Shown here in pieces: positions 16,056 to 33,640 of a stretch of DNA of 40,842 nt. A program made the position numbers and the translations under genes. How positions within the stretch are numbered: position 1 is the stretch's first letter; each line of letters starts with the position of its first letter. The DNA is from Gammaproteobacteria bacterium (GTDB taxonomy: Bacteria > Pseudomonadota > Gammaproteobacteria > Nitrosococcales > Methylophagaceae). Below the pieces are notes generated by a model. The model searched no databases. It had not been told where the DNA came from and saw only the letters and a list, made by a program, of their open reading frames with translations. The stretch is taken from NCBI GenBank assembly GCA_028598975.1, contig JAQRMU010000058.1:1-40842 (forward strand). Reading direction: 5' to 3'.

Positions 16056-19000
16056 TTAATCTAATTGAATCCAACTTTGGCGACCAAGCCCTTCACCACC
16101 TGATGTGCCGCTTGATGCGCCACAAATACCAGCCGTACAATTTGACTCACCAGTATTGACACTACTAGAAATACCAATTTTAGCAGTACTACGATCAGCA
16201 ATCGATATCCCACTTCCATTCGGCCCACTAATTATAACCGGCAAGCTTGGAATGCCTGTTGTTGATCTCACACCACTTGCCGTTGTTGAGCGTGAGCTAC
16301 CACCACTCTCCGTCCAGTCTGCATAATCATCAGAAGTGAAAGTACCATTACCCGTAACATCAAAAGAAGCCTCTTCATGGCGAGCACCATTTGAAGAATT
16401 TAATGACATTAACCAACCACTACCACCACCATCACACGCATCTGTGGCTGGTAATAACGTTGAATATAAAACTGAACGACCATAAAGGACAGCTTTTGAT
16501 ACAACTCTTTCACCATAATTACCGGCGGGCACTGGAGGAGCAACGACCGAATCTCCAGGATTTAAAAGGTTCAAATACCAACCATGATCATCAATATGAC
16601 TTTGCCAACCAGAATCGCCTACTTGCACCTCGGGATCATCTAACCATGCAATTTCATTGGAAGAGGTCACTCTAAGATCAGCAGCTGCCGTAGCGTGACC
16701 CACTTCCGCCTCAACGACTTGCTCTAATAAATCAGACGATGAAAGTCCAGAACACTCACCATCACTGCAGTCCCAAATAGCATAAATACTTTGTGTATCT
16801 TGCCCATCCGCATCATTATCATTTAGTCTAAAGAATTGTCCTGTACCAAAGTGTAATAAATAACCAGCAAGAGCACCAAGAGGATGTTCCTGAACTGCTA
16901 TTTTCTGAGTAATAGGTTGCGCTGTATTTGCAGTGAATATTTTTGTCGCACTCCAAGAGTTTGAATTAGAAGCACTGATATCAAAGCTCCATACATTACC
17001 CAGCAAATCACCTGCATAAACCTTATCCGCAATTAAATCACCATCAGTATCAAGCACTGTTGGTGATGATAATCCATTCGGCGTATCAGTATCACCAACC
17101 CCTGTATCAATCTCAGCGATTATCGCACCCGTTTTAATATTGATGACATACAAGACCGCTTTTCCAGTAGTGCTATCGTAGCCATTGCCAAAGATAGCGC
17201 CCCACACCGATTCACCTTTATTTAGCTTAACAACGATAGGCTTGCTAAAGCTATACCCCATATCAGCGCTATTAGAATCGCTAAACTCCCACAATGCAAT
17301 AGGTGCTTGATTTGCTGGTGCATTGGTAATATCTAAGGCATACACCCCTTTACCGCCTGCCCCCAAGCCACCCACCAATGTAGTATGCCAAGCATTATCA
17401 AAGTAAGCATCGCCTACTGTTGGTGTTGCATCCACAAAGTACTTATGAACGAACGGTTGGGTTGCCGTGTTTTTATGTGTTAAAGAATTAAGCCGTGGTA
17501 TCAACATTTTAGGAATGTAAGCAAATAATTCATTACCTTTATCTGCGTCAGTTGACGCATCAAAGGCATGTAACATACCATCATTCGCACCAACATAAAC
17601 GGTCGGTATTCGATGAATATAATCTTTTCTAAACTCAGCGTAATCCCCCTCTAAAGAGAAATAGGGTGATTTTGGCTCAGCAACAAACGTCGCTTCACTA
17701 TGAACAATATCACCCAACTTATTACCTGTTCTATCTCGGAACTGAGCACTATCTTCCCCGCGAATATAATCAAGCTGAGCTTGTGCATATTCTGTCGAAG
17801 CTGAATCAATCGTATATGTCGTCTTAGGCCATGCTTTACGCAACTCATTCACTTGTTCTGCATCTAAAGAGGGAAGTAAAAATGGAACCGTGTCGCCTGC
17901 AGTATTCATCGTAAATATTTTACGATCAGCAGAATCTCTATTCTTTAGTTTTGTCTTAGCACTCCATTCAGAAGAGAGTAATGAGGCCGTCATCTGATTA
18001 AGTGGGAACGATCGTACATCACCACTCCAATCACCACTGTTAAACGTTGTCTGGAAAAGACGGGTACGTGGCGATAAAGCATTGGAATTAACACTCACAG
18101 CACTACCTGACCCCTCGACCGCTGTTGCAAACAAAATAGCAGCATTAAGTTTTTCAATCAGCTCTGTCGGGTTTTTAGCATTGAGGTATAACCCTCGGCT
18201 GTTATAAGCGGCATGCCATAAATCATTAATTTTATTTTGACTATTACCGACCGGGTTCCCCCAATCACTGGATTCAGTATAGGAAAGAGCACCGCTTGCA
18301 TCTGCAGTACCAGGCCAACCATCACCATCAGGATCAGTCAAGCTACCCGTCACACCAAAACCAATACCAATTGTTGTTAAATGTTGCTGATTATTGGTAT
18401 CAAACGAATCGACAGGCACCTCATTTGCCAATAATGGGTGAAGATCTTCGTCATAATATTTTTTAGCCACATCCGCTAAGGTCGCCGCATAACCATCACC
18501 ATCTTCATCACTAATTCCTAAAGGGCTCACACCAGACCAATAGCCATCAGTCAGCATTAAAGCAAAGTTCTTCTGACAAATTTCAATAATAGGGCTGTCA
18601 TCATACGGCGATGCAAGCTCACCCTTAAAATATTTACCAACACGATCCAGCGCTCCGCGTAATGGTGTGCCTGCTTGTTTCCACACATACGAATACAAGC
18701 TATCTCTTATACCTTCATTATGTGTAGCATAATCTACGCCGTTCGATGGCATTTCTATAAATAGATTCGATACCCCAGCCTCTGCCGAAGTCACATTCAA
18801 GCCATAACGTAAGTCAGGCAAGCTCTCCAATAAACTTGCAACCGCTCCTTTTGCAACAAAAGAACGACGACGGCTATATTGATACCAGTTCGCTGCATTC
18901 TGCTGTACTTGCTCCACTGTTTTACAGTGGCCTGAATTATCTGGATCTTCGCCCAATATAGCAATGCAATCAGCATTCGTCTTATAAGTAGAATAATTTT

Positions 19001-21278
19001 CTGGAGTATAAATCACCTTGCCTGACACGCGAGTATCGAACATCAACATTTTCCATTCAGGTCGGCTTGAATAAGGTTGCTCACCAAACATATGTGGTGT
19101 CCGTCTTACTTTTTGCACCACAACCTTATCGGTATACACATCAACACGGTGATGTGCATCCCATAAATCGACTTCACCATTAGGAGTATCAGAATAATTT
19201 GAACAAACACGATCACCCGATGCAACAACTCCTCCTGTCGCAGGATCAACAACACCGGTAACACCTATAGAAGATGCTACCCAACCGTTTATACTACAGT
19301 TCCTGTCAGTAAATTTCGTCCATCTAGGGCGCGTGCCGCCATAACCCGCATCATCTGTCCAAACTTCATAGACAAAGCCTGCTTCTGTTGGATGTCGATA
19401 AGGAACTGTTGCAGTATTGATCTCTGATACGCTTGCATGTGGCCGAGATAAATCTCTTATCTCTGAATACCCTACTGAAGTAGGTTCAGGATCACTTCGT
19501 ACTTCAGTAAAACTGGCATTAGATAAGCCAGGCCAAGCGTTACAATCAACGTCAGGATTATAATAAATCACATTAAAATCAGCTGAACGGATCCGCCAAT
19601 CGACAATTATTGGCCATGGGTCCCATCGGCTCATCGCATGATGCGTTCCTGCAGGTGAGGGGTGGATATTACCCAATGAATCTGTCACCGTTTTAGGGTA
19701 GTTAGCAGGTTTTGGACCCACCCCCGCCCAATCTGCCCATGGAATATCTTTAAAAGACGTTCCTTCACCTGGAAAAGGAGGCGCCTTTGACAGTGATGGC
19801 CAAGGATAAGCACCGCCAAAACGACGCTGTCGTTTAACTAGGTCAGGCAAGGTTACAATCTTTTGATTACCCTTGAAATATTTACTAGTGGCTGTTTGAA
19901 ACAGATCAGCATCAAAATGATAGCCTGTAGGATAGTCAGCATTAACTAGATATCCACATGCATATGCTGACTGATAATTGCCATCTCCAGTACAAGATTT
20001 CCATGGTTTGGTATTATCACCATATTTTCCTAGAGGATTACGAAAAACATTATCACTGGATTCATACAAATATTTGAAACTATCTCGCATATAGGGCTTT
20101 TCGTCTTTTTCATGAAAATGATTTTCACCATCAAGACCTGCATAAATAGAGCCATTACCATTAATATCCAATGCGCCAAATGATTCAGACTCATCAATCA
20201 CGGTTGTTGAAGGTAATTTATCGTAATAGGTAGGCCGTGTGTAAGTTACAACTTCATCATAATTCCTCCATGAATGAGTGGCGTGGTCATGTTCATCAAT
20301 ATCATGACCTACTTCTGTCTCCGTACTGACATTAAGATCAATGTGGTAGGCCCCTCCGATCCACCTGCCACTACCAGTGGTCATACATTCAACATACCCT
20401 GGAGCTGTAACAACGGACGAAGTATTATGCCAAATAGTCTCATCACTATGAGAACTAACGCCTCCATTCGTACAAGCAGGATTAGCTCCATGATCAGCAG
20501 CAAGATCTGCAGAACCGGTTAATATTGCCAACAAAGTAGAAAAGTCAAACTTTTCAGCGTTGACACGGTCTGTTTTTTTTACGACCTTATTTAAATCTAA
20601 ACTTGAAAACTGTTCCTCCTGAGGAAGATAATCCTGTGCATCTAGAACATTTGATGGCGGTGGCGGTTTAGCAGGCACATAACAATAACCTGATGTGTAA
20701 TGCCTATGTCTCGGCCTATGATGCTTAATATAAGTCGTGGGGGTGTAGAACTCACAGCTGTTATAACCATGTTCTTCTGTGCGCTGAGATATTATCTTAG
20801 TATAACCCGCCTGTTCACGATCATCCTTGTCGCCATCAGCATTATAATCATTCTCATTATAACAAATACCATCGCCGTTTCGATCCCTACATTGTGCAGC
20901 AAAAGACACCCAATCACCGGTCGTCCTCTTATCTTGGATATTAATCCCTCCGTCACCGATATATTGAGTGCCATCCCCCCAGGCCCCGGTATTTAACCAG
21001 CCTCCTTTTGCCCAACTTCTATCTAAGTCAGGCTCATAAAGCCATGCTTCATGGTGAGGGATAGTTAAAATATCCAAGTCCATTGAACCTGAGTCATCAA
21101 GAACAAACATGATATTGGGCGTAGCAGACTTATTTAGAAACAGGGGAGACTGGGCAATATCAACGGCTAAGACTAAATTTGAAAAAAATAAGGCTGTAAT
21201 AAATACCACATTTACTTTTAGTTTAATAAAACCCCGTTTCATTAAAAAAACATTATCTTTCGTAACTTGATTATCCAT
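16056..21278 (-). CDS. pilY1: PilY1-like type IV pilus tip/assembly protein, 1740 aa
   Basis: N-terminal signal and VWA MIDAS-like FVLDDSGSMD; C-terminal propeller signatures TVYVGANDGMLHAFD, VGGLGAGGKGVYALD; located last in the minor-pilin cluster. Confidence 0.92.
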   Translation of the reverse strand: MDNQVTKDNVFLMKRGFIKLKVNVVFITALFFSNLVLAVDIAQSPLFLNKSATPNIMFVLDDSGSMDLDILTIPHHEAWLYEPDLDRSWAKGGWLNTGAWGDGTQYIGDGGINIQDKRTTGDWVSFAAQCRDRNGDGICYNENDYNADGDKDDREQAGYTKIISQRTEEHGYNSCEFYTPTTYIKHHRPRHRHYTSGYCYVPAKPPPPSNVLDAQDYLPQEEQFSSLDLNKVVKKTDRVNAEKFDFSTLLAILTGSADLAADHGANPACTNGGVSSHSDETIWHNTSSVVTAPGYVECMTTGSGRWIGGAYHIDLNVSTETEVGHDIDEHDHATHSWRNYDEVVTYTRPTYYDKLPSTTVIDESESFGALDINGNGSIYAGLDGENHFHEKDEKPYMRDSFKYLYESSDNVFRNPLGKYGDNTKPWKSCTGDGNYQSAYACGYLVNADYPTGYHFDADLFQTATSKYFKGNQKIVTLPDLVKRQRRFGGAYPWPSLSKAPPFPGEGTSFKDIPWADWAGVGPKPANYPKTVTDSLGNIHPSPAGTHHAMSRWDPWPIIVDWRIRSADFNVIYYNPDVDCNAWPGLSNASFTEVRSDPEPTSVGYSEIRDLSRPHASVSEINTATVPYRHPTEAGFVYEVWTDDAGYGGTRPRWTKFTDRNCSINGWVASSIGVTGVVDPATGGVVASGDRVCSNYSDTPNGEVDLWDAHHRVDVYTDKVVVQKVRRTPHMFGEQPYSSRPEWKMLMFDTRVSGKVIYTPENYSTYKTNADCIAILGEDPDNSGHCKTVEQVQQNAANWYQYSRRRSFVAKGAVASLLESLPDLRYGLNVTSAEAGVSNLFIEMPSNGVDYATHNEGIRDSLYSYVWKQAGTPLRGALDRVGKYFKGELASPYDDSPIIEICQKNFALMLTDGYWSGVSPLGISDEDGDGYAATLADVAKKYYDEDLHPLLANEVPVDSFDTNNQQHLTTIGIGFGVTGSLTDPDGDGWPGTADASGALSYTESSDWGNPVGNSQNKINDLWHAAYNSRGLYLNAKNPTELIEKLNAAILFATAVEGSGSAVSVNSNALSPRTRLFQTTFNSGDWSGDVRSFPLNQMTASLLSSEWSAKTKLKNRDSADRKIFTMNTAGDTVPFLLPSLDAEQVNELRKAWPKTTYTIDSASTEYAQAQLDYIRGEDSAQFRDRTGNKLGDIVHSEATFVAEPKSPYFSLEGDYAEFRKDYIHRIPTVYVGANDGMLHAFDASTDADKGNELFAYIPKMLIPRLNSLTHKNTATQPFVHKYFVDATPTVGDAYFDNAWHTTLVGGLGAGGKGVYALDITNAPANQAPIALWEFSDSNSADMGYSFSKPIVVKLNKGESVWGAIFGNGYDSTTGKAVLYVINIKTGAIIAEIDTGVGDTDTPNGLSSPTVLDTDGDLIADKVYAGDLLGNVWSFDISASNSNSWSATKIFTANTAQPITQKIAVQEHPLGALAGYLLHFGTGQFFRLNDNDADGQDTQSIYAIWDCSDGECSGLSSSDLLEQVVEAEVGHATAAADLRVTSSNEIAWLDDPEVQVGDSGWQSHIDDHGWYLNLLNPGDSVVAPPVPAGNYGERVVSKAVLYGRSVLYSTLLPATDACDGGGSGWLMSLNSSNGARHEEASFDVTGNGTFTSDDYADWTESGGSSRSTTASGVRSTTGIPSLPVIISGPNGSGISIADRSTAKIGISSSVNTGESNCTAGICGASSGTSGGEGLGRQSWIQLD

Positions 21279-21300
21279 ACTATATGTACCGCTTTATTCC

Positions 21301-21837
21301 CTAACTACAGGTTGAGAATTTATATGTTGTTTGTAAGGTTGCGTAATTAGTGCTGCTTCTACCATAACCTCGTGCTGTTACTCTATAGAAACAATCTCGA
21401 ATCTCGGGCTCACCCAATGTGGTTGCAGAGGGGGCAAACATAAACTCAACGTAATAATGTGGCGGCCTCGATACACCATCATCATCTGCTGTTCCTACAT
21501 AATCACAGGGTGACACGGCTCCTTCGGCATCCCAGTCTAAAATGCTATCTAATGCCACTTCACAAGGCCCTAAGCCAACCGTAGCGGCTTCTCCAGATAG
21601 AATCAAAATAGCATCATCGTCCTTTTGAAGGTTACTTTCGGCTTGTCTAAGTGCTGTTTCTGCCATTTGAAATGCGATATTTCCATCCTGGGTATTTCCC
21701 GCCATACGCTCTTCCATTATTGTTGTTCGCATACTGCTTACAGCAAGAAGAGTAACCATCACTAACATAATTAATGTAATAGCGAGTACAACACCTTGCT
21801 GCTGTTTTGGATATGCACTGTTCAAAATCCCTGTCAT
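21301..21837 (-). CDS. pilX: PilX-like minor pilin
   Basis: QQGVVLAITLIMLVMVTLLAVSSMRTTIMEERMAGNTQDGNIAFQMAETALR. Confidence 0.88.
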   Translation of the reverse strand: MTGILNSAYPKQQQGVVLAITLIMLVMVTLLAVSSMRTTIMEERMAGNTQDGNIAFQMAETALRQAESNLQKDDDAILILSGEAATVGLGPCEVALDSILDWDAEGAVSPCDYVGTADDDGVSRPPHYYVEFMFAPSATTLGEPEIRDCFYRVTARGYGRSSTNYATLQTTYKFSTCS

Positions 21838-21870
21838 TTAAAACATTCCCTACCATTTAGCTTTAACTTA

Positions 21871-22260
21871 TTACCAACAACCCGCTACAGCTGCACCTCT
21901 TGTATCAGTGTTATCTAAGGTCAAATCACCACAATAATCACTCGCCTGGGCGCCACTGGCTGTAGCGGTTAATGTAAAGAGTGCACCAGAGGCAGTAATC
22001 GCTACGCCTAAACCATAATAAACATTGTCACTATTTTTAGGTGATGTAGTGAAGGGTAATGCCGCACCTGTATACGTTGAATTTACGGTGTAATGACGCT
22101 CCATAAAGCTTGCTAATTCAATAAGGTCACCTTCCGCTGTTACACGCCGTGAATCTCTTAGTGCAGACTGATAACTGGGATAAGCTATTGCAGACAAAAT
22201 ACCAACAATTGCTACAACAATCATCAATTCTATTAATGTAAACCCTCGATTTTTTTTCAT
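21871..22260 (-). CDS. pilE: PilE-like type IV pilin
   Basis: [31 protein letters not shown] prepilin signal; paired Cys near the C-terminus. Confidence 0.9.
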
Positions 22261-22275
22261 CTTATTTCGCTCTTC

Positions 22276-23286
22276 TTAATTAAGTTGGTTACGCACCGTA
22301 ATCGTTGATGTATAAACTTTTCGTAATCTATTGTCCGTCGCTACTGTAGAAGTATCATTAAAAAAATAGGTTTGAGGCTCAGTTACAACATTATCATCTG
22401 GGCTTCGCACCAACAAGCTTACTTTAACACTCACTACTTTTGTCATATCTAAACCCGCTGTTCCAGCTGGAACATAATACATATTCCCTCCAGCTAATCG
22501 CTCACCATATAGAATTTGCATATTTTCAATATTTGCGACGAGTTGATCACCATCAAGTCTCAAGCCTGGAACGCCTTTACTATCATTTTGAATATCATAG
22601 ACTACTGGTTGCACCCCAGCACTCCCTTCAGCCAAGAAATAGACTTTCGCACCTATACCATACTTTGTTGTAAGTGCTTGGGTTTTATTTCCAGGCCCTT
22701 CATCAGCGGGAACGGTGCCACTACCATGCTTAAGCTCATCATAACTGGCACTCACGTTTGTTGATGGATCGTTTGTAATCTGAAATATATCGCTATAACT
22801 ACAATCAGTGACTAACACTATTCCATATTCAGGTAGGCTACTGTCCGCAGTCACTTTTAATTTTGCTGTTGCTGCTGTCATCATTGATTGAACATCAAGC
22901 CCTGCTCTCATTGAAGCAAGGCCGCTTATGCGAATTAAATCAGAACCATTGGCACCAACATTATCATCGCCATCAACAGCTTGTTCAGATAAATCACTAA
23001 AATCATAGGCCGCTGCTGAGGAATCTAAATGGTTATATGCATTATTTAGCACATCATTATCACCACAAAATAATGAGTTATAACCTGCTTGGCGAATATC
23101 TTTTATCAAAAAATGCATTGCAAAACGGGAATTTTCTTGCATTCGAGATACGTTTTCTTGGGTTCTATTTGTTTTATTTGTTGTTAGAAAAACCTGCGTT
23201 ACACCCGCCGTTAAAAATAAACCTATCGTAAATGCCACCATAACCTCAACAAGTGTAAAGCCTTGCTCATGTATAGGATTTATCAT
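22276..23286 (-). CDS. pilW: PilW-like minor pilin
   Basis: EQGFTLVEVMVAFTIGLFLTAGVTQVFLTTNKTNRTQENVSRMQENSRFA. Confidence 0.88.
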   Translation of the reverse strand: MINPIHEQGFTLVEVMVAFTIGLFLTAGVTQVFLTTNKTNRTQENVSRMQENSRFAMHFLIKDIRQAGYNSLFCGDNDVLNNAYNHLDSSAAAYDFSDLSEQAVDGDDNVGANGSDLIRISGLASMRAGLDVQSMMTAATAKLKVTADSSLPEYGIVLVTDCSYSDIFQITNDPSTNVSASYDELKHGSGTVPADEGPGNKTQALTTKYGIGAKVYFLAEGSAGVQPVVYDIQNDSKGVPGLRLDGDQLVANIENMQILYGERLAGGNMYYVPAGTAGLDMTKVVSVKVSLLVRSPDDNVVTEPQTYFFNDTSTVATDNRLRKVYTSTITVRNQLN

Positions 23287-23765
23287 GGTTGAAATCTCGC
23301 TGAAAAAGAGGCATCACTCGCATCTGTATTTCCATCTCGGTTATCATCCCAAGTAACGGTAATTGTATAAATACCTGCGGCGACACTAATATATCCTTCA
23401 CCACCCGGTAATGAATTACTTATTTCACCCAACCATTCAAACTTATCATGTGAGGCCATTTGTAATGGAGTACACCCAGCAACAGCATTAGCCGAATAAG
23501 AGGTGCATGATGCTTCTTCTACTCCCTCCTCAGTATATTTTTCAAGACCAGACAAAAGTTCCCTATTCGTCATTGCTCTCATTCGTTCAGACATGTCATA
23601 GACTAATTGAACGGCTGTTCCTCGTTGTTCCGCATCAAGGTTGTAACGTAATGACGTTGTTTGAAGGCCTGCTAAACCTAATAATCCCATTGCCATAATC
23701 ACAACCGTGACCAACACCTCGACAAGGGTAAATCCTTTATATTTTTGATTAAACATTATGTACAA
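23283..23765 (-). CDS. pilV: PilV-like minor pilin
   Basis: YKGFTLVEVLVTVVIMAMGLLGLAGLQTTSLRYN; overlaps its neighbours by a few bases. Confidence 0.88.
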   Translation of the reverse strand: MYIMFNQKYKGFTLVEVLVTVVIMAMGLLGLAGLQTTSLRYNLDAEQRGTAVQLVYDMSERMRAMTNRELLSGLEKYTEEGVEEASCTSYSANAVAGCTPLQMASHDKFEWLGEISNSLPGGEGYISVAAGIYTITVTWDDNRDGNTDASDASFSARFQP

Positions 23766-24298
23766 TCAGCCGAATTAACTGTTCCAGCCTCAACCCGTGC
23801 TCGACCTACTCTATTTACAAGAATTTTCCTTGATGACGCCTTATCTTCACTTGTATCACATAGTTTAAATGAATCATTTCCTAAACTACTACCCGAACCG
23901 ACACTGAGCCCATCAGGTAAATAAGCAACCCAATTTGCAAAGGTTCCACCGGTTCTTAATGTGTAATTAGCACTGATCGCTTCATGAACCTTTAGCAAGG
24001 TATCATCTAGATCTAGTACTCCATCTCTATCAAGGTCAGTAAAAATTTGCCAACCTCCATCCCAGACTTTGCTTGCACCACCTTGTTTTAAGATTGTAAC
24101 TTGTACATTACGCGTTACAGCTTCACTGCGAGCATAATTAAGCGCCGTTAAAATATCATTGGCATTGGCCGTCATCCTACTGTCCCGAATTAGATTCGTA
24201 AAACTAGGAAGGCCGATTGTTATCAACATGATCGCTATTGATAGCGTAATCATTAGTTCTAATAAGGTGAAACCGCGAGATTTATTATTATTTTCCAT
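23756..24298 (-). CDS. fimT: FimT/FimU-like pseudopilin
   Basis: SRGFTLLELMITLSIAIMLITIGLPSFTNLIRDSRMTANANDILTALNYARSEAVTRN. Confidence 0.88.
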   Translation of the reverse strand: MENNNKSRGFTLLELMITLSIAIMLITIGLPSFTNLIRDSRMTANANDILTALNYARSEAVTRNVQVTILKQGGASKVWDGGWQIFTDLDRDGVLDLDDTLLKVHEAISANYTLRTGGTFANWVAYLPDGLSVGSGSSLGNDSFKLCDTSEDKASSRKILVNRVGRARVEAGTVNSADCT

Positions 24299-24629: not shown

Positions 24630-24866
24630 ATGCCAATCCAGCAAGCTTTAGTAGATGAAATCGAGTTATTACTGCGTTATAACTTAGACAGCACTCAAGA
24701 AGGTATTAAAGTACACCACACTGCACGTGAAGGTTTAGTAAATGCTATCGAACGTCTTCATGAAAAGGGCTTAGTCGATAGTAAAGATGGGGGTTATTTA
24801 ACCGATCTTGGTCATGAAGCGGCAGAACATACTCAAGCGGCACTACGTATTTTAACGTCCGATTAA
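24630..24866 (+). CDS. TIGR02647-type small conserved protein
   Basis: 78 aa, EIELLLRYNLDSTQEGIKVHHTAREGLVNAIERLHEKGLVD; family name from recollection. Confidence 0.7.
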   Translation: MPIQQALVDEIELLLRYNLDSTQEGIKVHHTAREGLVNAIERLHEKGLVDSKDGGYLTDLGHEAAEHTQAALRILTSD

Positions 24867-25348
24867 ATTCGGTCAAAAACGATAAAGCTATAAGGATATT
24901 CATTCTTATTATCAGCAGAATAATCTTCTCTGTTTATCTCTTGCCAATCAGACCTCTGCCAGTCTGGAAACCATGTATCACCTTCTAGGCTGGCATGTAC
25001 CTGCGTTAAATATAAGCGTTCTGCTTGGGGTAATAACTGTTTATATAACGACGCACCGCCCATCACCATCACTTCATCAACATCATCACATGCTGCAATA
25101 GCCTCTTCAACAGAGTGCACAACACAACACCCCTCTGCTTGATAGTCTATGTTAGTCGTCACAATTATATTTTTTCGTCCAGGTAAAGCTCGACCTATAG
25201 ATTCATGCGTATTCCGTCCCATAATAAGCGGTTTTCCCATTGTAACTCGACGAAAATACTGTAAATCTGCTGATAATTTCCATGGCAGATCATTCTCTCT
25301 ACCTATCAATCCTTTTTTATCTGTTGCAACAATGATGGCTAATTTCAC
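24863..25348 (-). CDS. folA: Dihydrofolate reductase
   Basis: IIVATDKKGLIGRENDLPWKLSADLQYFRRVTMGKPLIMGRNTHESIGRALPGRKNIIVT. Confidence 0.97.
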   Translation of the reverse strand: MKLAIIVATDKKGLIGRENDLPWKLSADLQYFRRVTMGKPLIMGRNTHESIGRALPGRKNIIVTTNIDYQAEGCCVVHSVEEAIAACDDVDEVMVMGGASLYKQLLPQAERLYLTQVHASLEGDTWFPDWQRSDWQEINREDYSADNKNEYPYSFIVFDRI

Positions 25349-25493: not shown

Positions 25494-25676
25494 TGTGGAT
25501 AACTTTACCTGTGGATAAGTAGACTAGTTATCCACAAGATAAAACACGTTAACAATGACATTTACCCACAGCTCAAAATAAACTTAAAGTGTTGATTAAT
25601 CTTAAATAAAACAGCTCATCCACATATCCACAGAAAACAATCATCAACATCATAATCTTTATAAATACTTATAATG
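25494..25676. promoter_or_regulatory. DnaA-box-like array R1 upstream of priA
   Basis: tgtggataa at 25494-25502 and 25510-25518; ttatccaca at 25528-25536; one-mismatch ttacccaca 25562-25570 and tcatccaca 25616-25624; tatccacag 25625-25633; followed by AT-rich aacatcataatctttataaatacttataat. Confidence 0.75.
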
Positions 25677-25690
25677 TATTATTACAAGAT

Positions 25691-27871
25691 ATGACCAGCA
25701 TTCTTCAAATCTCTATTCCATGTCCTTTACGATTAAATTTTGATTACCTTTCCGATCAATCATTAACTCATTGGCAAGCAGGATTACGTGTTCGTGTTTC
25801 TTTTGGTTCTAGAGAACTGATTGGAATAGTAGTAAGCGCCACAGAAATTGATAACACTGTCGATACCTCAAAATTAAAACCTATTTTAGAATGTCTTGAT
25901 CAACAAGCTATAATTCCTGCTGATTTACTTTCTTTAACGCAATGGTTAAGCGACTACTACCATCATCCATTAGGCGATTGTTTTCAAACTGTCTTGCCAA
26001 AGAAAATACGTCATGGCGAAGCATTAGAATTTCAAATGGAAACCGTATGGAAAATAGGCCCAAAACAATCAAAGGTTAAAGTAGGTAAAAAACAGCAACA
26101 AATACTAGATTTATTAGCAGAAAATAATGATGGAGTAGTGCAAAGTGAACTTTATCATCAGCTAGGCCAATGTCGTTCCTCTTTAGTTTCACTCGAAAAA
26201 AAGAAGATTATTGAACAGTCACAACATATTAAAAAACCTTCTATAACTCATTCTCTTTCTACTCCTTGTCATTTAAACCAAGAGCAACAATTAGCCGTCG
26301 ATACGATATGGGATTCATATAAAACATTTAGCCCTTATCTATTACAGGGTATTACAGGAAGTGGTAAAACAGAGGTCTATATTGAACTCACTGAAAAAGT
26401 AGTCAAAGAAGGCAAACAAGTCCTTATCTTAATCCCTGAGATCGGGCTAACAACCCAATTTGTAACACGATTTAAAGAACGTTTAGCCGTTAATATTGTG
26501 GTATTAAATTCATCAATTTCAGATGGAGAGCGAAAACAATCGTGGTTGTTAGCAAGAGAGGGTATTGCAGACGTTATTATTGGAACACGATCGGCTGTTT
26601 TTACACCGTTAAAAGAAATTGGTCTAATTATCATTGATGAAGAACATGATGCGTCCTATAAACAACAAGATGGCCTTCGTTATCATGCCAGAAATGTTGC
26701 TTTAATTAGAGCTAAACGGGCACATATCCCTATCGTCTTGGGCAGTGCCACACCATCATTAGAAAGTTTGTATCATGTTGAAAAAAAGCGCTTCCAACGT
26801 ATTGAGTTAAATAAACGAGCAACAGGTGCTACATTGCCTAAAGTTCACCTAATTGATAGTGCAGGACCTAAAGCAGATAATGGTGTTTCTAGTGTTTTAT
26901 ATAAAGCCATTAAAAAACAATTAGAGCATAACAACCAGGTTTTATTGTTTGTAAACCGCCGAGGTTTTGCTCCTGTCCTTATGTGTCATGAATGTAATTG
27001 GCAAGCAAGCTGTTCTCATTGTGATGCAAAAATGATTGTTCACCAAGGCCGTAACAGCTTGTGTTGCCATCATTGTGGCCTTATTCAACGTTTACCTTCC
27101 CAATGTCCTAAATGTCAGGATAAAAATTTAAAGACCTATGGTGCAGGAACGGAACAAATAGAATTAAGTCTACAACGCTACTTCCCTACAACACCTGTAT
27201 TAAGAATTGATCGAGATTCAACTCAACGAGTGAATGCGTTTGCAGATATCGTGGCTGATATTCGCCAAGGAGGCGCTAAGATTTTAGTAGGTACTCAAAT
27301 GTTGGCCAAAGGACATGATTTTCATGATGTCACCTTGGTTGGGGTTTTGGATGCTGATCAGGGATTATTAAGTGCTGATTTCCGAGCAACTGAAAACCTA
27401 GCCCAATTAATTGTTCAAGTAACAGGGCGCTCTGGTCGTGGTAAAAAAGCGGGGGAAGTGTTTATTCAAACCAATCAACCTCAGCATGAGTTTTGGCAAG
27501 ATTTAATTCAGCAAGGTTATAGTTACTCAGCAAATAAATTACTTGAAGAACGAAAATTAATGGCGATGCCGCCTGCTGCATATCTGACCATTATTAGAGC
27601 TGAAGATAAACAAGAGCAGCTTGCCATGCAGTTTTTAACCGATGTCCACGCATTATTAACACAACATCAGCAAGAGGTCATTGTAATGGGGCCTGTTCCA
27701 GCCATAATGGAAAAGCGCGCAGGGCGCTTTAGGGCTCAATTATTACTTTCTTGCCCACAACGAAAACCAATACATCAATTATTAGATCATTCGATTAATG
27801 CTATTTCATCTCTCAAATTATCCCGAAAAGTCCGCTGGTCGATTGATATTGACCCATTAGATCTTATGTAA
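25691..27871 (+). CDS. priA: Primosomal protein N' (replication restart helicase PriA)
   Basis: Walker A LLQGITGSGKTEVYIEL, DEEHD, paired-Cys zinc-binding region CHECNWQASCSHC...CCHHCG...CPKC. Confidence 0.98.
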   Translation: MTSILQISIPCPLRLNFDYLSDQSLTHWQAGLRVRVSFGSRELIGIVVSATEIDNTVDTSKLKPILECLDQQAIIPADLLSLTQWLSDYYHHPLGDCFQTVLPKKIRHGEALEFQMETVWKIGPKQSKVKVGKKQQQILDLLAENNDGVVQSELYHQLGQCRSSLVSLEKKKIIEQSQHIKKPSITHSLSTPCHLNQEQQLAVDTIWDSYKTFSPYLLQGITGSGKTEVYIELTEKVVKEGKQVLILIPEIGLTTQFVTRFKERLAVNIVVLNSSISDGERKQSWLLAREGIADVIIGTRSAVFTPLKEIGLIIIDEEHDASYKQQDGLRYHARNVALIRAKRAHIPIVLGSATPSLESLYHVEKKRFQRIELNKRATGATLPKVHLIDSAGPKADNGVSSVLYKAIKKQLEHNNQVLLFVNRRGFAPVLMCHECNWQASCSHCDAKMIVHQGRNSLCCHHCGLIQRLPSQCPKCQDKNLKTYGAGTEQIELSLQRYFPTTPVLRIDRDSTQRVNAFADIVADIRQGGAKILVGTQMLAKGHDFHDVTLVGVLDADQGLLSADFRATENLAQLIVQVTGRSGRGKKAGEVFIQTNQPQHEFWQDLIQQGYSYSANKLLEERKLMAMPPAAYLTIIRAEDKQEQLAMQFLTDVHALLTQHQQEVIVMGPVPAIMEKRAGRFRAQLLLSCPQRKPIHQLLDHSINAISSLKLSRKVRWSIDIDPLDLM

Positions 27872-27941
27872 TAGAAAAAAAATCCTTTAAAAAATGACAC
27901 TATAACTCATGTATAAGGGCGCAAGAAGAAGATGAATAATC

Positions 27942-28125
27942 TGTGGATAAGTTTTTCTGTGGATAACTTAGCTACTTATCCACAACTTATTAAAAACCTA
28001 CTTATGTATTTATATCTCTAGAGTAACTACTTTAGTTGTTTGATTTTAAATGTAAAAAACAAGTTATCCACATATCAACAGGCATAAATAATTAACATCA
28101 TAATCTTTAAAAACCTATTTATTAT
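27942..28125. promoter_or_regulatory. DnaA-box-like array R2 between priA and argS
   Basis: tgtggataa at 27942-27950 and 27958-27966; ttatccaca at 27976-27984 and 28064-28072; tatcaacag 28073-28081; followed by AT-rich aacatcataatctttaaaaacctatttattat. Confidence 0.75.
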
Positions 28126-28239
28126 GTTACTGATGCTTGCTTCATCTTCTAATTCTTAGCTTGTTTGTTTTCAATATATGAACATCAGCCAAGGATCGGG
28201 TAAAATACAACGATTATTCATACCTTAGGGTTATCAACA

Positions 28240-30000
28240 TTGAAAGCTCAGCTAATCACATTGCTTGATCACGTTTTATCCGACTTAATTAATCAAAATA
28301 TCCTCCCTGAAATGGAACGACCTGATATTCAAATTGAGCGAACAAAAGATAAAGCTCATGGTGACTTTGCCTGTAATATCGCCATGATGTTGGCAAGACC
28401 AGCAAAGATGAACCCTCGCCAAATCGCAACACATATTGTTGAAGCATTACCCACTGTTGATTTCATCACTAAAGTAGATATTGCCGGACCAGGATTTATT
28501 AATTTCACCTTGTCATCAGATTCTGCACAAAAAATCGTTAAGGATGTATTGCAATCAGGCTCTAAATTTGGAAAAAGCCAATTAGGTGCTGGAAAAAAAG
28601 TACAAGTTGAATTTGTATCAGCAAACCCAACAGGTCCATTGCATGTTGGCCATGGTCGAGGCGCTGCTTATGGTTCGGTTGTTAGTCAATTATTGATGGA
28701 AGTTGGTTTTGATGTTCATCGTGAATATTATGTGAACGATGCTGGCCGCCAGATGGATATTTTAGCAACCAGTGTGTGGTTACGTTATTTAGCAGCATGT
28801 GGTGAAACCTTTACCTTCCCAAGTAATGGTTATAAAGGCGATTATGTTTTAGATATTGCAACAGCATTGAAAGATAAATATGGTGATAAATTACGCCGAA
28901 CACCTACTGATGTATTTGCCAATGTACCTACCGATGAACCTGATGGTGGTGATAAAGAGCAGCATATTGATGCTTTAATCATCAATGCAAAATCCTTATT
29001 GGGTGAAAGTGATTATCGTAATGTATTTGATTTAGGATTAAATTCAATTATTTCAGGAATCAAGTCTGATCTTGCTGATTTTGGTACTGATTACGACCAG
29101 TGGTTCTCTGAACGTTCATTGATGGAGTCGGGTGATGTTGATAAAGCCATTGAAGCGCTAAAAGCCTCAGATGTTTTATATGAAAAAGAAGGCGCTTGGT
29201 GGTTTAAATCTACCGACTTTGGTGATGAGAAAGACCGTGTTGTGGTTCGAGATAATGGTCAAACAACCTACTTTGCTTCTGATATTGCCTACCACTTAAA
29301 TAAATTTAATCGCGGATTTGATACCGTTATTGATGTATGGGGGAGTGATCATCATGGTTATATCCCACGTGTAAAAGCCTCTCTAACAGCGATGAAACAA
29401 GATGAAAATAGACTAAAAGTCTTATTGGTTCAGTTTGCTATCTTGTACCGAGGTACTGAAAAAGTAGCCATGTCGACACGAAGTGGTCAATTTGTCACCT
29501 TGAAAGCGTTACAAGAAGAAATTGGTAAAGATGCCGCTCGTTTTTTCTATGTTTTACGTGGTGCCGATCAGCATATGGATTTTGATCTTGAATTAGCCAA
29601 GTCCCAAAGTAATGATAATCCCGTTTATTATGTTCAATATGCTCATGCTCGTGTGTGCAGTGTGTTTAGACAATTGAATGAGCGAGGTTTAACGTGGAAT
29701 CAAGCCCAAGGCGAACAAGGTTTAAGCCGGTTAACTGAAGAGCATGAGCAAGCACTGTTTACGGCATTAGCACGTTATCCCGAACTATTGGAGTCAGCGG
29801 CAGTGAACCATACGCCACATCTATTAGCACATTACCTAATGGATTTAGCTCGTGATTTCCATACTTACTACAATGCACATCACTTTATTGTTGATGATGT
29901 TGAATTAAGCCAAGCGCGACTAACGCTTATTTCTGCTGTAAAACAAGTTATTACCAACGGCCTTACCGTGATGGGTGTATCTTCACCGGAGACGATGTAA
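28240..30000 (+). CDS. argS: Arginyl-tRNA synthetase
   Basis: [23 protein letters not shown] (HIGH-type), [14 protein letters not shown]; starts with TTG. Confidence 0.98.
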
Positions 30001-30680: not shown

Positions 30681-31955
30681 ATGACAGAAATGACCGATAC
30701 AGGCGTTTGGCAAGAAGTAGCTAGCCCGTTTTGTGGTATTGCTTCTGATGATTTAAGCATCAAGGTAGAAGGCAATACGGTATCTATTGTTGAAAATGGT
30801 GATGCGGTGACTAAAGCAGGGTTTGAAACACCGATTACTGATTTATCGCCGAGAGTGAATGGTAAAGAGGTTTCCTTATCCGAAGCTGTCAGCCATGTTG
30901 CTGGTTTATTACGATCAAGTAAACAGCCTGTTATCGGTGGTTTGGCAACTGATTTAAATGGTGTTCGTTCAGCGATGGCTTTGGCAGATAAATCACGTGC
31001 AACAGTTGATAGTATGGACTCAGATGCGGCATTTCGTAACTTATTAGTGTTACAAGATACTGGCTGGATGATGACCACGCTTACTGAAGTTCGTAACCGA
31101 GTTGATGTGTTGTTGGTAGTGGGTAGTGATATAGAAGTTGATTATCCTCGTTTTTATGAGCGTATGCTGTGGAACAAGGAAAGTATGTTCGATCAGGAAA
31201 TTGAGTCACGCCAAGTGATTTATTTGGGTAAAACACCTTCTGGTGATGCCTCAACGTCACCGAAAGGAAAAAAAGCACACGTATTAGCCTGTGATAATGA
31301 AGACTTACCAGAAGTGATGTCGGTATTGCGTGCCTTGGTCAATGGTAAAGCCGTTCAGGCAGAGCAAGTAGGTGGTTTGGCTGTATCAGATTTAGCAGAT
31401 TTAGCAGAAACACTGAAACAAGCAAAATATTCAGTAGTGACATGGTCAGCAGGTAGTCTTGATATGGAACATGCTGAAGCAACGGTTCAAATGGCGTGTG
31501 AAATGGTTAAAGAGCTTAATGCTGATACACGTAGTAACTGTTTAGCTTTAGGCGGTAAGGAAGGCAGCACGACAGTTTATAACGTGTCCTCATGGCAGGC
31601 TGGTTACCCAATGCGAACTAACTTTAGCCGTGGCTATCCAGATTACGATCCGTATTTGTCGGATAGCAAACGGATGTTGGCAAATGATGAAGTGGATGTA
31701 TTGTTATGGGTGTCGAGCTTTAATGTTAAACGAACACCACCAGAATCAAATGCTACGACAGTAGTGATAGGTCGTTCAGGAATGACTTTTGAGCAAGAGC
31801 CAGACGTATTTATTCCTGTTGGTGTGCCGGGTATTGATCATGCTGGTCGTGCTTTCCGTGGTGATAGCTCGGTCGCAGTACCATTAAGAAAATTACGTGA
31901 CAGTGGTTTGCCAAGCACATTTGATGTGCTGACAGCCGTTGAAAAATTGGTTTAA
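30681..31955 (+). CDS. fhcB: Formyltransferase/hydrolase complex subunit B (FwdB/FhcB-like)
   Basis: VASPFCGIASDDLSIKVEGN; SSWQAGYPMRTNFSRGYPDYDPY; first gene of the fhcBADC cluster. Confidence 0.92.
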   Translation: MTEMTDTGVWQEVASPFCGIASDDLSIKVEGNTVSIVENGDAVTKAGFETPITDLSPRVNGKEVSLSEAVSHVAGLLRSSKQPVIGGLATDLNGVRSAMALADKSRATVDSMDSDAAFRNLLVLQDTGWMMTTLTEVRNRVDVLLVVGSDIEVDYPRFYERMLWNKESMFDQEIESRQVIYLGKTPSGDASTSPKGKKAHVLACDNEDLPEVMSVLRALVNGKAVQAEQVGGLAVSDLADLAETLKQAKYSVVTWSAGSLDMEHAEATVQMACEMVKELNADTRSNCLALGGKEGSTTVYNVSSWQAGYPMRTNFSRGYPDYDPYLSDSKRMLANDEVDVLLWVSSFNVKRTPPESNATTVVIGRSGMTFEQEPDVFIPVGVPGIDHAGRAFRGDSSVAVPLRKLRDSGLPSTFDVLTAVEKLV

Positions 31956-31972
31956 TAGGGGTCGAATAAAAG

Positions 31973-33640
31973 ATGTTAACTAAATTAACAGGCGGTAGAG
32001 TTTACGATCCAGCCAATAGTATCAATAATGAAGTCAAAGATATTTATATCCGTGATGGTCGCATTGTAAGAGCGCCAAGTGACGGACAGTTTGATGAAGA
32101 AATTGATGTGCGTGGCAAAGTTGTTATGGCGGGTGCGATAGATATGCACACCCATATTGGTGGCGGTAAAGTTAATATAGCTAGAACGATGCTACCGGAA
32201 GATCATGCAGCAGATGTGGTTGCTAGAACAGAGTTAATGAGAAGTGGTTGTGGTCATGCTGCACCAAGTACATTAACAGCGGGTTATCGCTATGCAGAGA
32301 TGGGTTATACAGCGGGTTTTGAACCTGCGATATTGCCAATTAATGCCCGCCAAGCACATATGGAAATGGGTGATACACCGATCATCGATAAAGGTGGTTA
32401 TGTCATGTTGGGTAGTGATGATTTCCTACTTCGTATGATGGCCTCAAATGGTGATCAAGAAGCAATTAATAACTATGTTGCTTGGACAATGACTCATAGC
32501 CAAGCAATTGGGGTTAAAGTGGTTAACCCGGGTGGCATCAATGCCTTTAAGTTTAACCAACGTAAACTTGATTTAGATGAGAAAAACCAATTTTATGGTG
32601 TGACACCTCGTGATATTTTATTAAGACTTGCTCAAGCCGTGAAAGAGCTGGGTGTGCCTCATCCACTTCATGTTCATGGGTGTAACTTAGGTGTGCCGGG
32701 TAATCTAGATACTACGATTGATACAATGGAAGGCATTAACGGCCTGCCAATGCATATGACGCATATTCAGTTCCATAGTTATGGTACGGAAGGTGACTTT
32801 AAGTTCTCTTCAGGTTCAGCACAAATTGCCGAAGTGATTAATAAGCATAAAAATATCACTGCTGATGTGGGCCAGATTTTATTTGGTCAAACAGTAACAG
32901 CATCAGGTGATGCGATGCGCCAGTTTTCTGCAACACCACATGCTCACCCTAATAAATGGGTGTGTATGGATATTGAGTGTGATGCAGGTTGTGGTGTGGT
33001 GCCATTTAAGTACAAAGATCAAAGTTATGTAAATGCATTGCAGTGGATGATTGGTTTAGAGACTTTCTTAATGGTTGATGATCCTTGGCGAGTATTCTTA
33101 ACAACGGATCATCCAAATGGTGCACCATTCACGAGTTATCCACATCTGATTAGACTGTTAATGGATAAAACATTCCGCGATGATATTTTGTCTACCTTGC
33201 ATCCAGAGGCTCAAAAAGCGAGCCATTTGGCATCATTAGAACGCGAATATTCACTGTATGAAATCGCGATTATGACACGTGCAGGGGCGGCTAAATTAGT
33301 CGGTCTTGCTGATCGCGGTCACCTAAGTGTAGGTGGTGCGGCAGATATTACTATTTATACCGATGATGCAGATCGTGAAAAGATGTTTAGTAAACCTGAT
33401 TATGTGTTCAAAGACGGCACAATGGTGGTGAAAGACGGTGAACTGATCGAGGTGACATGGGGTACAACGCATGTGGTTAAACCAGAATATGACAACAGTA
33501 TTGAGAAGGCATTAAAACCTTACTTTGATAAGTACCACACTCAGAAAATGGGTAACTTCAAAATGAGTGATGATGAAATTGTTGATGATGGTCGAGGTAG
33601 TCTAACCGTGCAGCCTTTACATGCAGGAGGCAAGATATGA
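31973..33640 (+). CDS. fhcA: Formyltransferase/hydrolase complex subunit A (amidohydrolase, FwdA/FhcA)
   Basis: GAIDMHTHIGGGKVNIARTMLPEDH; PHPLHVHGCNLGVPGN; TTDHPNGAPFTSYPHLIRLLMD. Confidence 0.95.
   Translation: MLTKLTGGRVYDPANSINNEVKDIYIRDGRIVRAPSDGQFDEEIDVRGKVVMAGAIDMHTHIGGGKVNIARTMLPEDHAADVVARTELMRSGCGHAAPSTLTAGYRYAEMGYTAGFEPAILPINARQAHMEMGDTPIIDKGGYVMLGSDDFLLRMMASNGDQEAINNYVAWTMTHSQAIGVKVVNPGGINAFKFNQRKLDLDEKNQFYGVTPRDILLRLAQAVKELGVPHPLHVHGCNLGVPGNLDTTIDTMEGINGLPMHMTHIQFHSYGTEGDFKFSSGSAQIAEVINKHKNITADVGQILFGQTVTASGDAMRQFSATPHAHPNKWVCMDIECDAGCGVVPFKYKDQSYVNALQWMIGLETFLMVDDPWRVFLTTDHPNGAPFTSYPHLIRLLMDKTFRDDILSTLHPEAQKASHLASLEREYSLYEIAIMTRAGAAKLVGLADRGHLSVGGAADITIYTDDADREKMFSKPDYVFKDGTMVVKDGELIEVTWGTTHVVKPEYDNSIEKALKPYFDKYHTQKMGNFKMSDDEIVDDGRGSLTVQPLHAGGKI

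Follow-up and report, generated by a model that had tools for sequence, protein, structure and literature searches.

The window, a 40,842-bp stretch of DNA from a member of the Methylophagaceae, contains the primosomal gene priA between folA and argS, the latter followed by an ftsN-like gene (Table 1). To the left of folA, the minus strand encodes at positions 16056 to 24298 a protein of 1739 aa that matches the PilC-type type IV pilus tip adhesin at a score under the family cut-off, and this gene is followed by several prepilin-like genes. Directly to the right of argS and the ftsN-like gene, positions 30681 to 33640 encode subunits B and A of formylmethanofuran dehydrogenase. These enzymes fit a methylotroph, as expected, and their genes place C1 metabolism near the proposed origin described below.

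Two arrays of DnaA boxes, R1 and R2, flank priA. Their elements recur at a constant offset of 2448 bp with zero indels, and the preliminary description of the arrays is correct to the base. Both arrays contain the three-box unit TGTGGATAA-7-TGTGGATAA-9-TTATCCACA, followed by a spacer of 79 bp, a pair of overlapping boxes, and an AT-rich element that adjoins the boxes, as in oriC, and presumably serves as the site of opening. The copies are identical at 35 of 43 positions in boxes 1 to 3, 16 of 18 in boxes 4 and 5, 25 of 32 in the tail, and only 32 of 79 in the spacer (shuffle p = 0.037). The spacer is therefore diverged, as had been noted, but it is not blank: an IHF-like site lies within it and, in R1, so does a weak DnaA box.

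Table 1. Genes and predicted origin elements around priA (window coordinates)
Feature	Position	Strand	Remarks
folA (type 3 dihydrofolate reductase)	24863..25348	-	Left neighbor; reads away from the proposed origin
R1 DnaA box 1 (TTATCCACA)	25494..25502	-	Within 1 mismatch in 29/29 genomes
R1 DnaA box 2	25510..25518	-	Exact in 29/29 genomes
R1 DnaA box 3	25528..25536	+	Within 1 mismatch in 27/29 genomes
R1 weak DnaA box (TTACCCACA)	25562..25570	+	Inside the spacer; offset 67-69, at most 2 mismatches in 27/29 genomes
R1 IHF-like site TAAAGTGTTGATT	25585..25597	-	Matches YAANNNNTTGATW; shuffle P 0.015
R1 boxes 4 and 5 (TCATCCACA overlapping ATATCCACA)	25616..25632	+	Offset 120-122 in relatives, often degenerate
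R1 AT-rich tail	25634..25690		82.5% A+T; motif ATCAACATCATAATCTTT; presumed DNA unwinding element
priA (primosomal protein N')	25691..27871	+	NF004067, 902 bits
R2 DnaA box 1	27942..27950	-	
R2 DnaA box 2	27958..27966	-	
R2 DnaA box 3	27976..27984	+	
R2 IHF-like site TAGTTGTTTGATT	28033..28045	-	One mismatch; offset as in R1; alone not significant
R2 boxes 4 and 5 (TTATCCACA overlapping ATATCAACA)	28064..28080	+	
R2 AT-rich tail	28082..28135		79.6% A+T; AACATCATAATCTTTAWAAA common to R1
argS	28240..30000	+	Right neighbor

Arrays of this kind are excluded as a product of chance, with about 6e-6 exact triples within 43 bp expected per genome. The window contains 31 sites that match TTATCCACA with at most one mismatch, compared to 13.7 +/- 3.7 in shuffled sequences, none of which reached 31. 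In the 1.88-Mb assembly (99.6% complete), 7 of the 29 exact copies of TTATCCACA fall inside R1 and R2. The core TGTGGATAA-n-TTATCCACA has no copy elsewhere in the assembly, which makes the site flanking priA the sole three-box cluster of the genome; similar clusters scattered over unrelated sites, which would have spoken against the arrays, did not turn up. A perfect inverted DnaA-box pair, GTTATCCACA-AAAAT-TGTGGATAAC, is found on another contig of the same genome (C55:2695-2717; L025 1501-1523) within a longer hairpin. This hairpin, which is probably terminator-like, is flanked by small genes, with a toxin-antitoxin-like pair nearby.

The cumulative GC skew of the window, which is partly confounded by gene direction, has its minimum at 26345, between R1 and R2, with a flat bottom from 25.4 to 28.3 kb; on both sides, the genes near the site are directed away from it. 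Since the genes reverse their orientation here as well, skew was sampled piecewise on contigs of 0.9 and 2.3 Mb from two relatives (G018 and G034, respectively). In Methylophaga aminisulfidivorans (G034), priA lies at 360 kb; sampled values are negative on the stretch leading to the gene, mostly positive between 370 kb and 1.1 Mb, and negative again beyond ~1.25 Mb. In G018, where priA lies at 526 kb, negative values extend to ~530 kb and positive ones span 560 to 918 kb, with the sign changing at ~526 to 560 kb. The skew thus changes sign at this locus in the window and in both sampled relatives; in two more genomes (G030 and G035), the local change is faint. Further, parS is located 12 to 42 kb from priA in G018, G034, G035, and G030, while in the genome under study it is on a different contig from priA. 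The dnaA gene is 73 to 211 kb away from priA in G018, G034, G035, G006, and G010.

The places where an origin is usually sought offer no competing candidate. No box cluster is found at dnaA-dnaN or at mnmG in the genome under study, for which reason we rejected an origin at either, and seven further dnaA loci of the family have none. Based on the sequence, its conservation, the skew, the proximity of parS, and the lack of another candidate, R1 (25494 to 25690) is very probably the core of oriC and R2 (27942 to 28135) a second, diverged copy, with which the origin would consist of two parts on either side of priA. Two box clusters with a gene between them near the skew minimum are the arrangement expected of a bipartite origin; this is seen here, and six genomes have the pair of clusters. 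The preliminary description had counted among its candidates a unit that resembles an origin and unwinds at its AT-rich tail, and the evidence points further, to the chromosomal origin itself. It had also listed a DnaA-titration locus. The known datA locus combines clustered high-affinity DnaA boxes with an IHF site, and clustered high-affinity boxes with an IHF-like site are present here as well, so that a datA- or DARS-like locus regulating DnaA, with oriC elsewhere, might be considered. However, a titration locus would be expected at a distance from the origin, whereas the arrays coincide with the skew inflection. The genome contains no further box cluster that could serve as origin, and two other genomes have the same array in front of mnmG (see below). 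We have rejected this very improbable reading for its wrong position and the lack of an alternative origin.

The oriC reading is further supported by the conservation of R1. R1 is present in each of the 29 family genomes that permitted an alignment, including the one under study, with identical spacing of boxes 1 to 3 and always just upstream of priA, box 1 being at -188 to -202 from the start of the priA match; a loss of boxes or spacing in close relatives, which would have counted against the arrays, is therefore not seen. Exact arrays also occur on broken contigs (G013 and G024), and an array with a single mismatch is found near a contig end, beside folA, in G031. The IHF-like site YAANNNNTTGATW keeps a constant offset of 89 to 91 in most arrays. 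Its single matches are mostly not significant, and it is the constant position that counts, not the score of any one match. In relatives, the R1 tail is likewise AT-rich and carries the conserved ATCAACATCATAATCTTT. According to the DnaA-trio rule for the BUS, at least three 3'-NAN-5' trios are found within 16 bp of a box (PMC8287927). The mean longest run in the AT-rich tails is 3.1, which is no better than in shuffled tails, and we make no claim of a DnaA-trio motif there.

When 85,488 named species genomes were scanned for exact matches, the three-box unit was found essentially only in Methylophaga and other Methylophagaceae, plus two other Gammaproteobacteria, a distribution that places the host with Methylophaga. 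The copies come from Methylophaga isolates and metagenome-assembled genomes (MAGs), two Methylophagaceae records, and MAGs named only as Gammaproteobacteria, Piscirickettsiaceae, or Pseudomonadota. Among the 35 exact arrays, 32 adjoin priA or folA, and two others are upstream of mnmG (also known as gidA), where oriC is classically located in many Gammaproteobacteria. The latter belong to digester MAGs (L282 and L286), where mnmG was recognized from the start of its protein sequence and the AT-rich DNA is on the same side of the unit. Because the identical unit occupies this classical position, it is, as judged from such comparison, a building block of oriC that in Methylophagaceae stands at priA, while the mnmG locus of the genome under study has no cluster.

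R2 is far less widespread. It is found in 6 of the 29 genomes (G000, G028, G020, G001, G006, and G007), which form three groups on the PriA tree and may reflect a single gain followed by losses or repeated gains; the other 23 show no R2, although in one of them (G019) the downstream side is missing from the data. In G033, a second array (C1:302833-303182; L073, L100) is located ~320 bp upstream of R1 and not downstream of priA; because of this position, duplication of the array has probably occurred more than once in the family. The distance between R1 and R2, in exact-core coordinates, is 2448 bp here, 2459 in G028, 2587 to 2588 in G007 and G001, and 2616 in G006. Thus, the duplication under spacing constraint that had been suggested is supported with regard to the internal spacing of each array, and a constraint on the 2448-bp distance is rejected.

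The sparse distribution of R2 fits another view, in which R1 is the entire origin and R2 a functionless or decaying duplicate, still recognizable through common ancestry or its use as an argS promoter. In keeping with decay, G000 and G028 differ more in R2 than in R1 (72% versus 86% identity overall, and 53% versus 83% in the spacers), and half of the R2 copies have no weak box. However, in all six R2 genomes boxes 1 to 3 and box 4 remain within one mismatch, while the spacers of R1 and R2 are now about as different as those of randomly paired R1 arrays, and this retention of the boxes suggests that they are under selection. We therefore lean toward R2 as the accessory half of a bipartite origin, with some hesitation, and regard the decaying duplicate as a less probable but serious contender.

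The proximity of the R1 end to the priA start across the family could alternatively point to DnaA-dependent control of transcription, of priA from R1 and of argS from R2, which would tie the supply of the restart helicase to initiation, possibly besides the origin role. Such control had been proposed in the preliminary description, and about half of the other gammaproteobacterial families sampled have a different DnaA-box module upstream of priA. Nevertheless, R1 shows the full layout of an origin, together with the skew and parS evidence, and argS usually has no R2, so that this explanation is not needed and appears unlikely.

This wider module, TTATRCACA-about 170 bp-TCATCCACA-3-TTATCCACA-5-TGTGGATAA or a variant, was detected upstream of priA in 24 of the 43 gammaproteobacterial genomes surveyed, mostly one per family (e.g., G054, L109; G143, L199; G149, L203; G172, L208; G142, L211; and G074, L214). 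The 24 include genomes of 69 to 72% GC. The DNA between the boxes of the module is AT-rich, and most copies have 0 to 3 mismatches over the 27 box positions, compared to 7 to 11 for the best of 100 shuffles. G045 apparently has two copies, and in E. coli the module is not present upstream of priA. It is not the main origin in G149, where the DNA to the left and right of the module shows positive skew, with no inflection there; G143 is ambiguous. Homology of R1 to the module is not claimed, as the geometry differs (box orientation - - + in R1 and + + - in the module). Two autonomously replicating elements (ARS) of Pseudomonas aeruginosa (Yee and Smith 1990; Jiang 2006) are cited in PMC4403523. 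The module may be identical to the second of these elements, regulate DnaA, or control priA. A descent of the Methylophagaceae origin from this module is speculative. In a fuller and rather doubtful version, DnaA would long have bound a control site upstream of priA throughout Gammaproteobacteria, and this site, possibly a second origin kept dormant, would have become the sole origin in Methylophagaceae as the dnaA/mnmG origin was lost and would have been doubled in some lineages, giving two complete firing units that flank priA.

In the order of its elements, R1 resembles a known origin. The E. coli oriC consists of an unwinding element, a DnaA box, an IHF site, and further boxes, and R1 follows the same order when read from its AT-rich end; the location differs, as the DNA in front of E. 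coli priA is free of boxes. In known bipartite origins, the two parts flank dnaA, whereas here priA lies between them. The origins of Bacillus subtilis and Helicobacter pylori likewise consist of two clusters of DnaA boxes with other DNA in between, but only one part contains the unwinding element (PMC4285127), whereas both halves described here have the full layout, including the AT-rich tail. Closer at hand, Nitrosococcaceae, members of the same order, also have a DnaA-box cluster as chromosomal origin, at dnaA-dnaN. In the Nitrosococcus-like outgroup, this cluster is ~1.5 kb into contigs that apparently begin at dnaA, and there are no boxes at priA, which is 15 to 25 kb along the contig. 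The simplest reading is that the origin was relocated in the ancestor of Methylophagaceae.

By analogy with the E. coli oriC as generally known, DnaA would bind boxes 1 to 3, and IHF-type bending ~90 bp further on would bring this complex against DnaA on boxes 4 and 5. The joint complex would open the adjacent AT-rich tail, and helicase loading would follow, with forks leaving both ways. R1 alone would be sufficient in most of the family, and R2 would probably add DnaA binding or a second opening place.

We found no paper on the oriC of Methylophaga in the open-access literature; a computed prediction may exist in DoriC. We consider this relocated origin, shared across the family and bipartite in part of it, to be very probably real. 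Annotation commonly takes dnaA or mnmG as the marker of oriC and would thereby mis-annotate a whole family whose origin is at priA. In the Methylophagaceae, origin relocation could be studied as it occurred in nature, against closely related outgroups (the Nitrosococcus-like genomes, with the origin at dnaA), and the paired halves of equal layout, present in some relatives and absent from others, would make the purpose of a bipartite origin testable by comparison.
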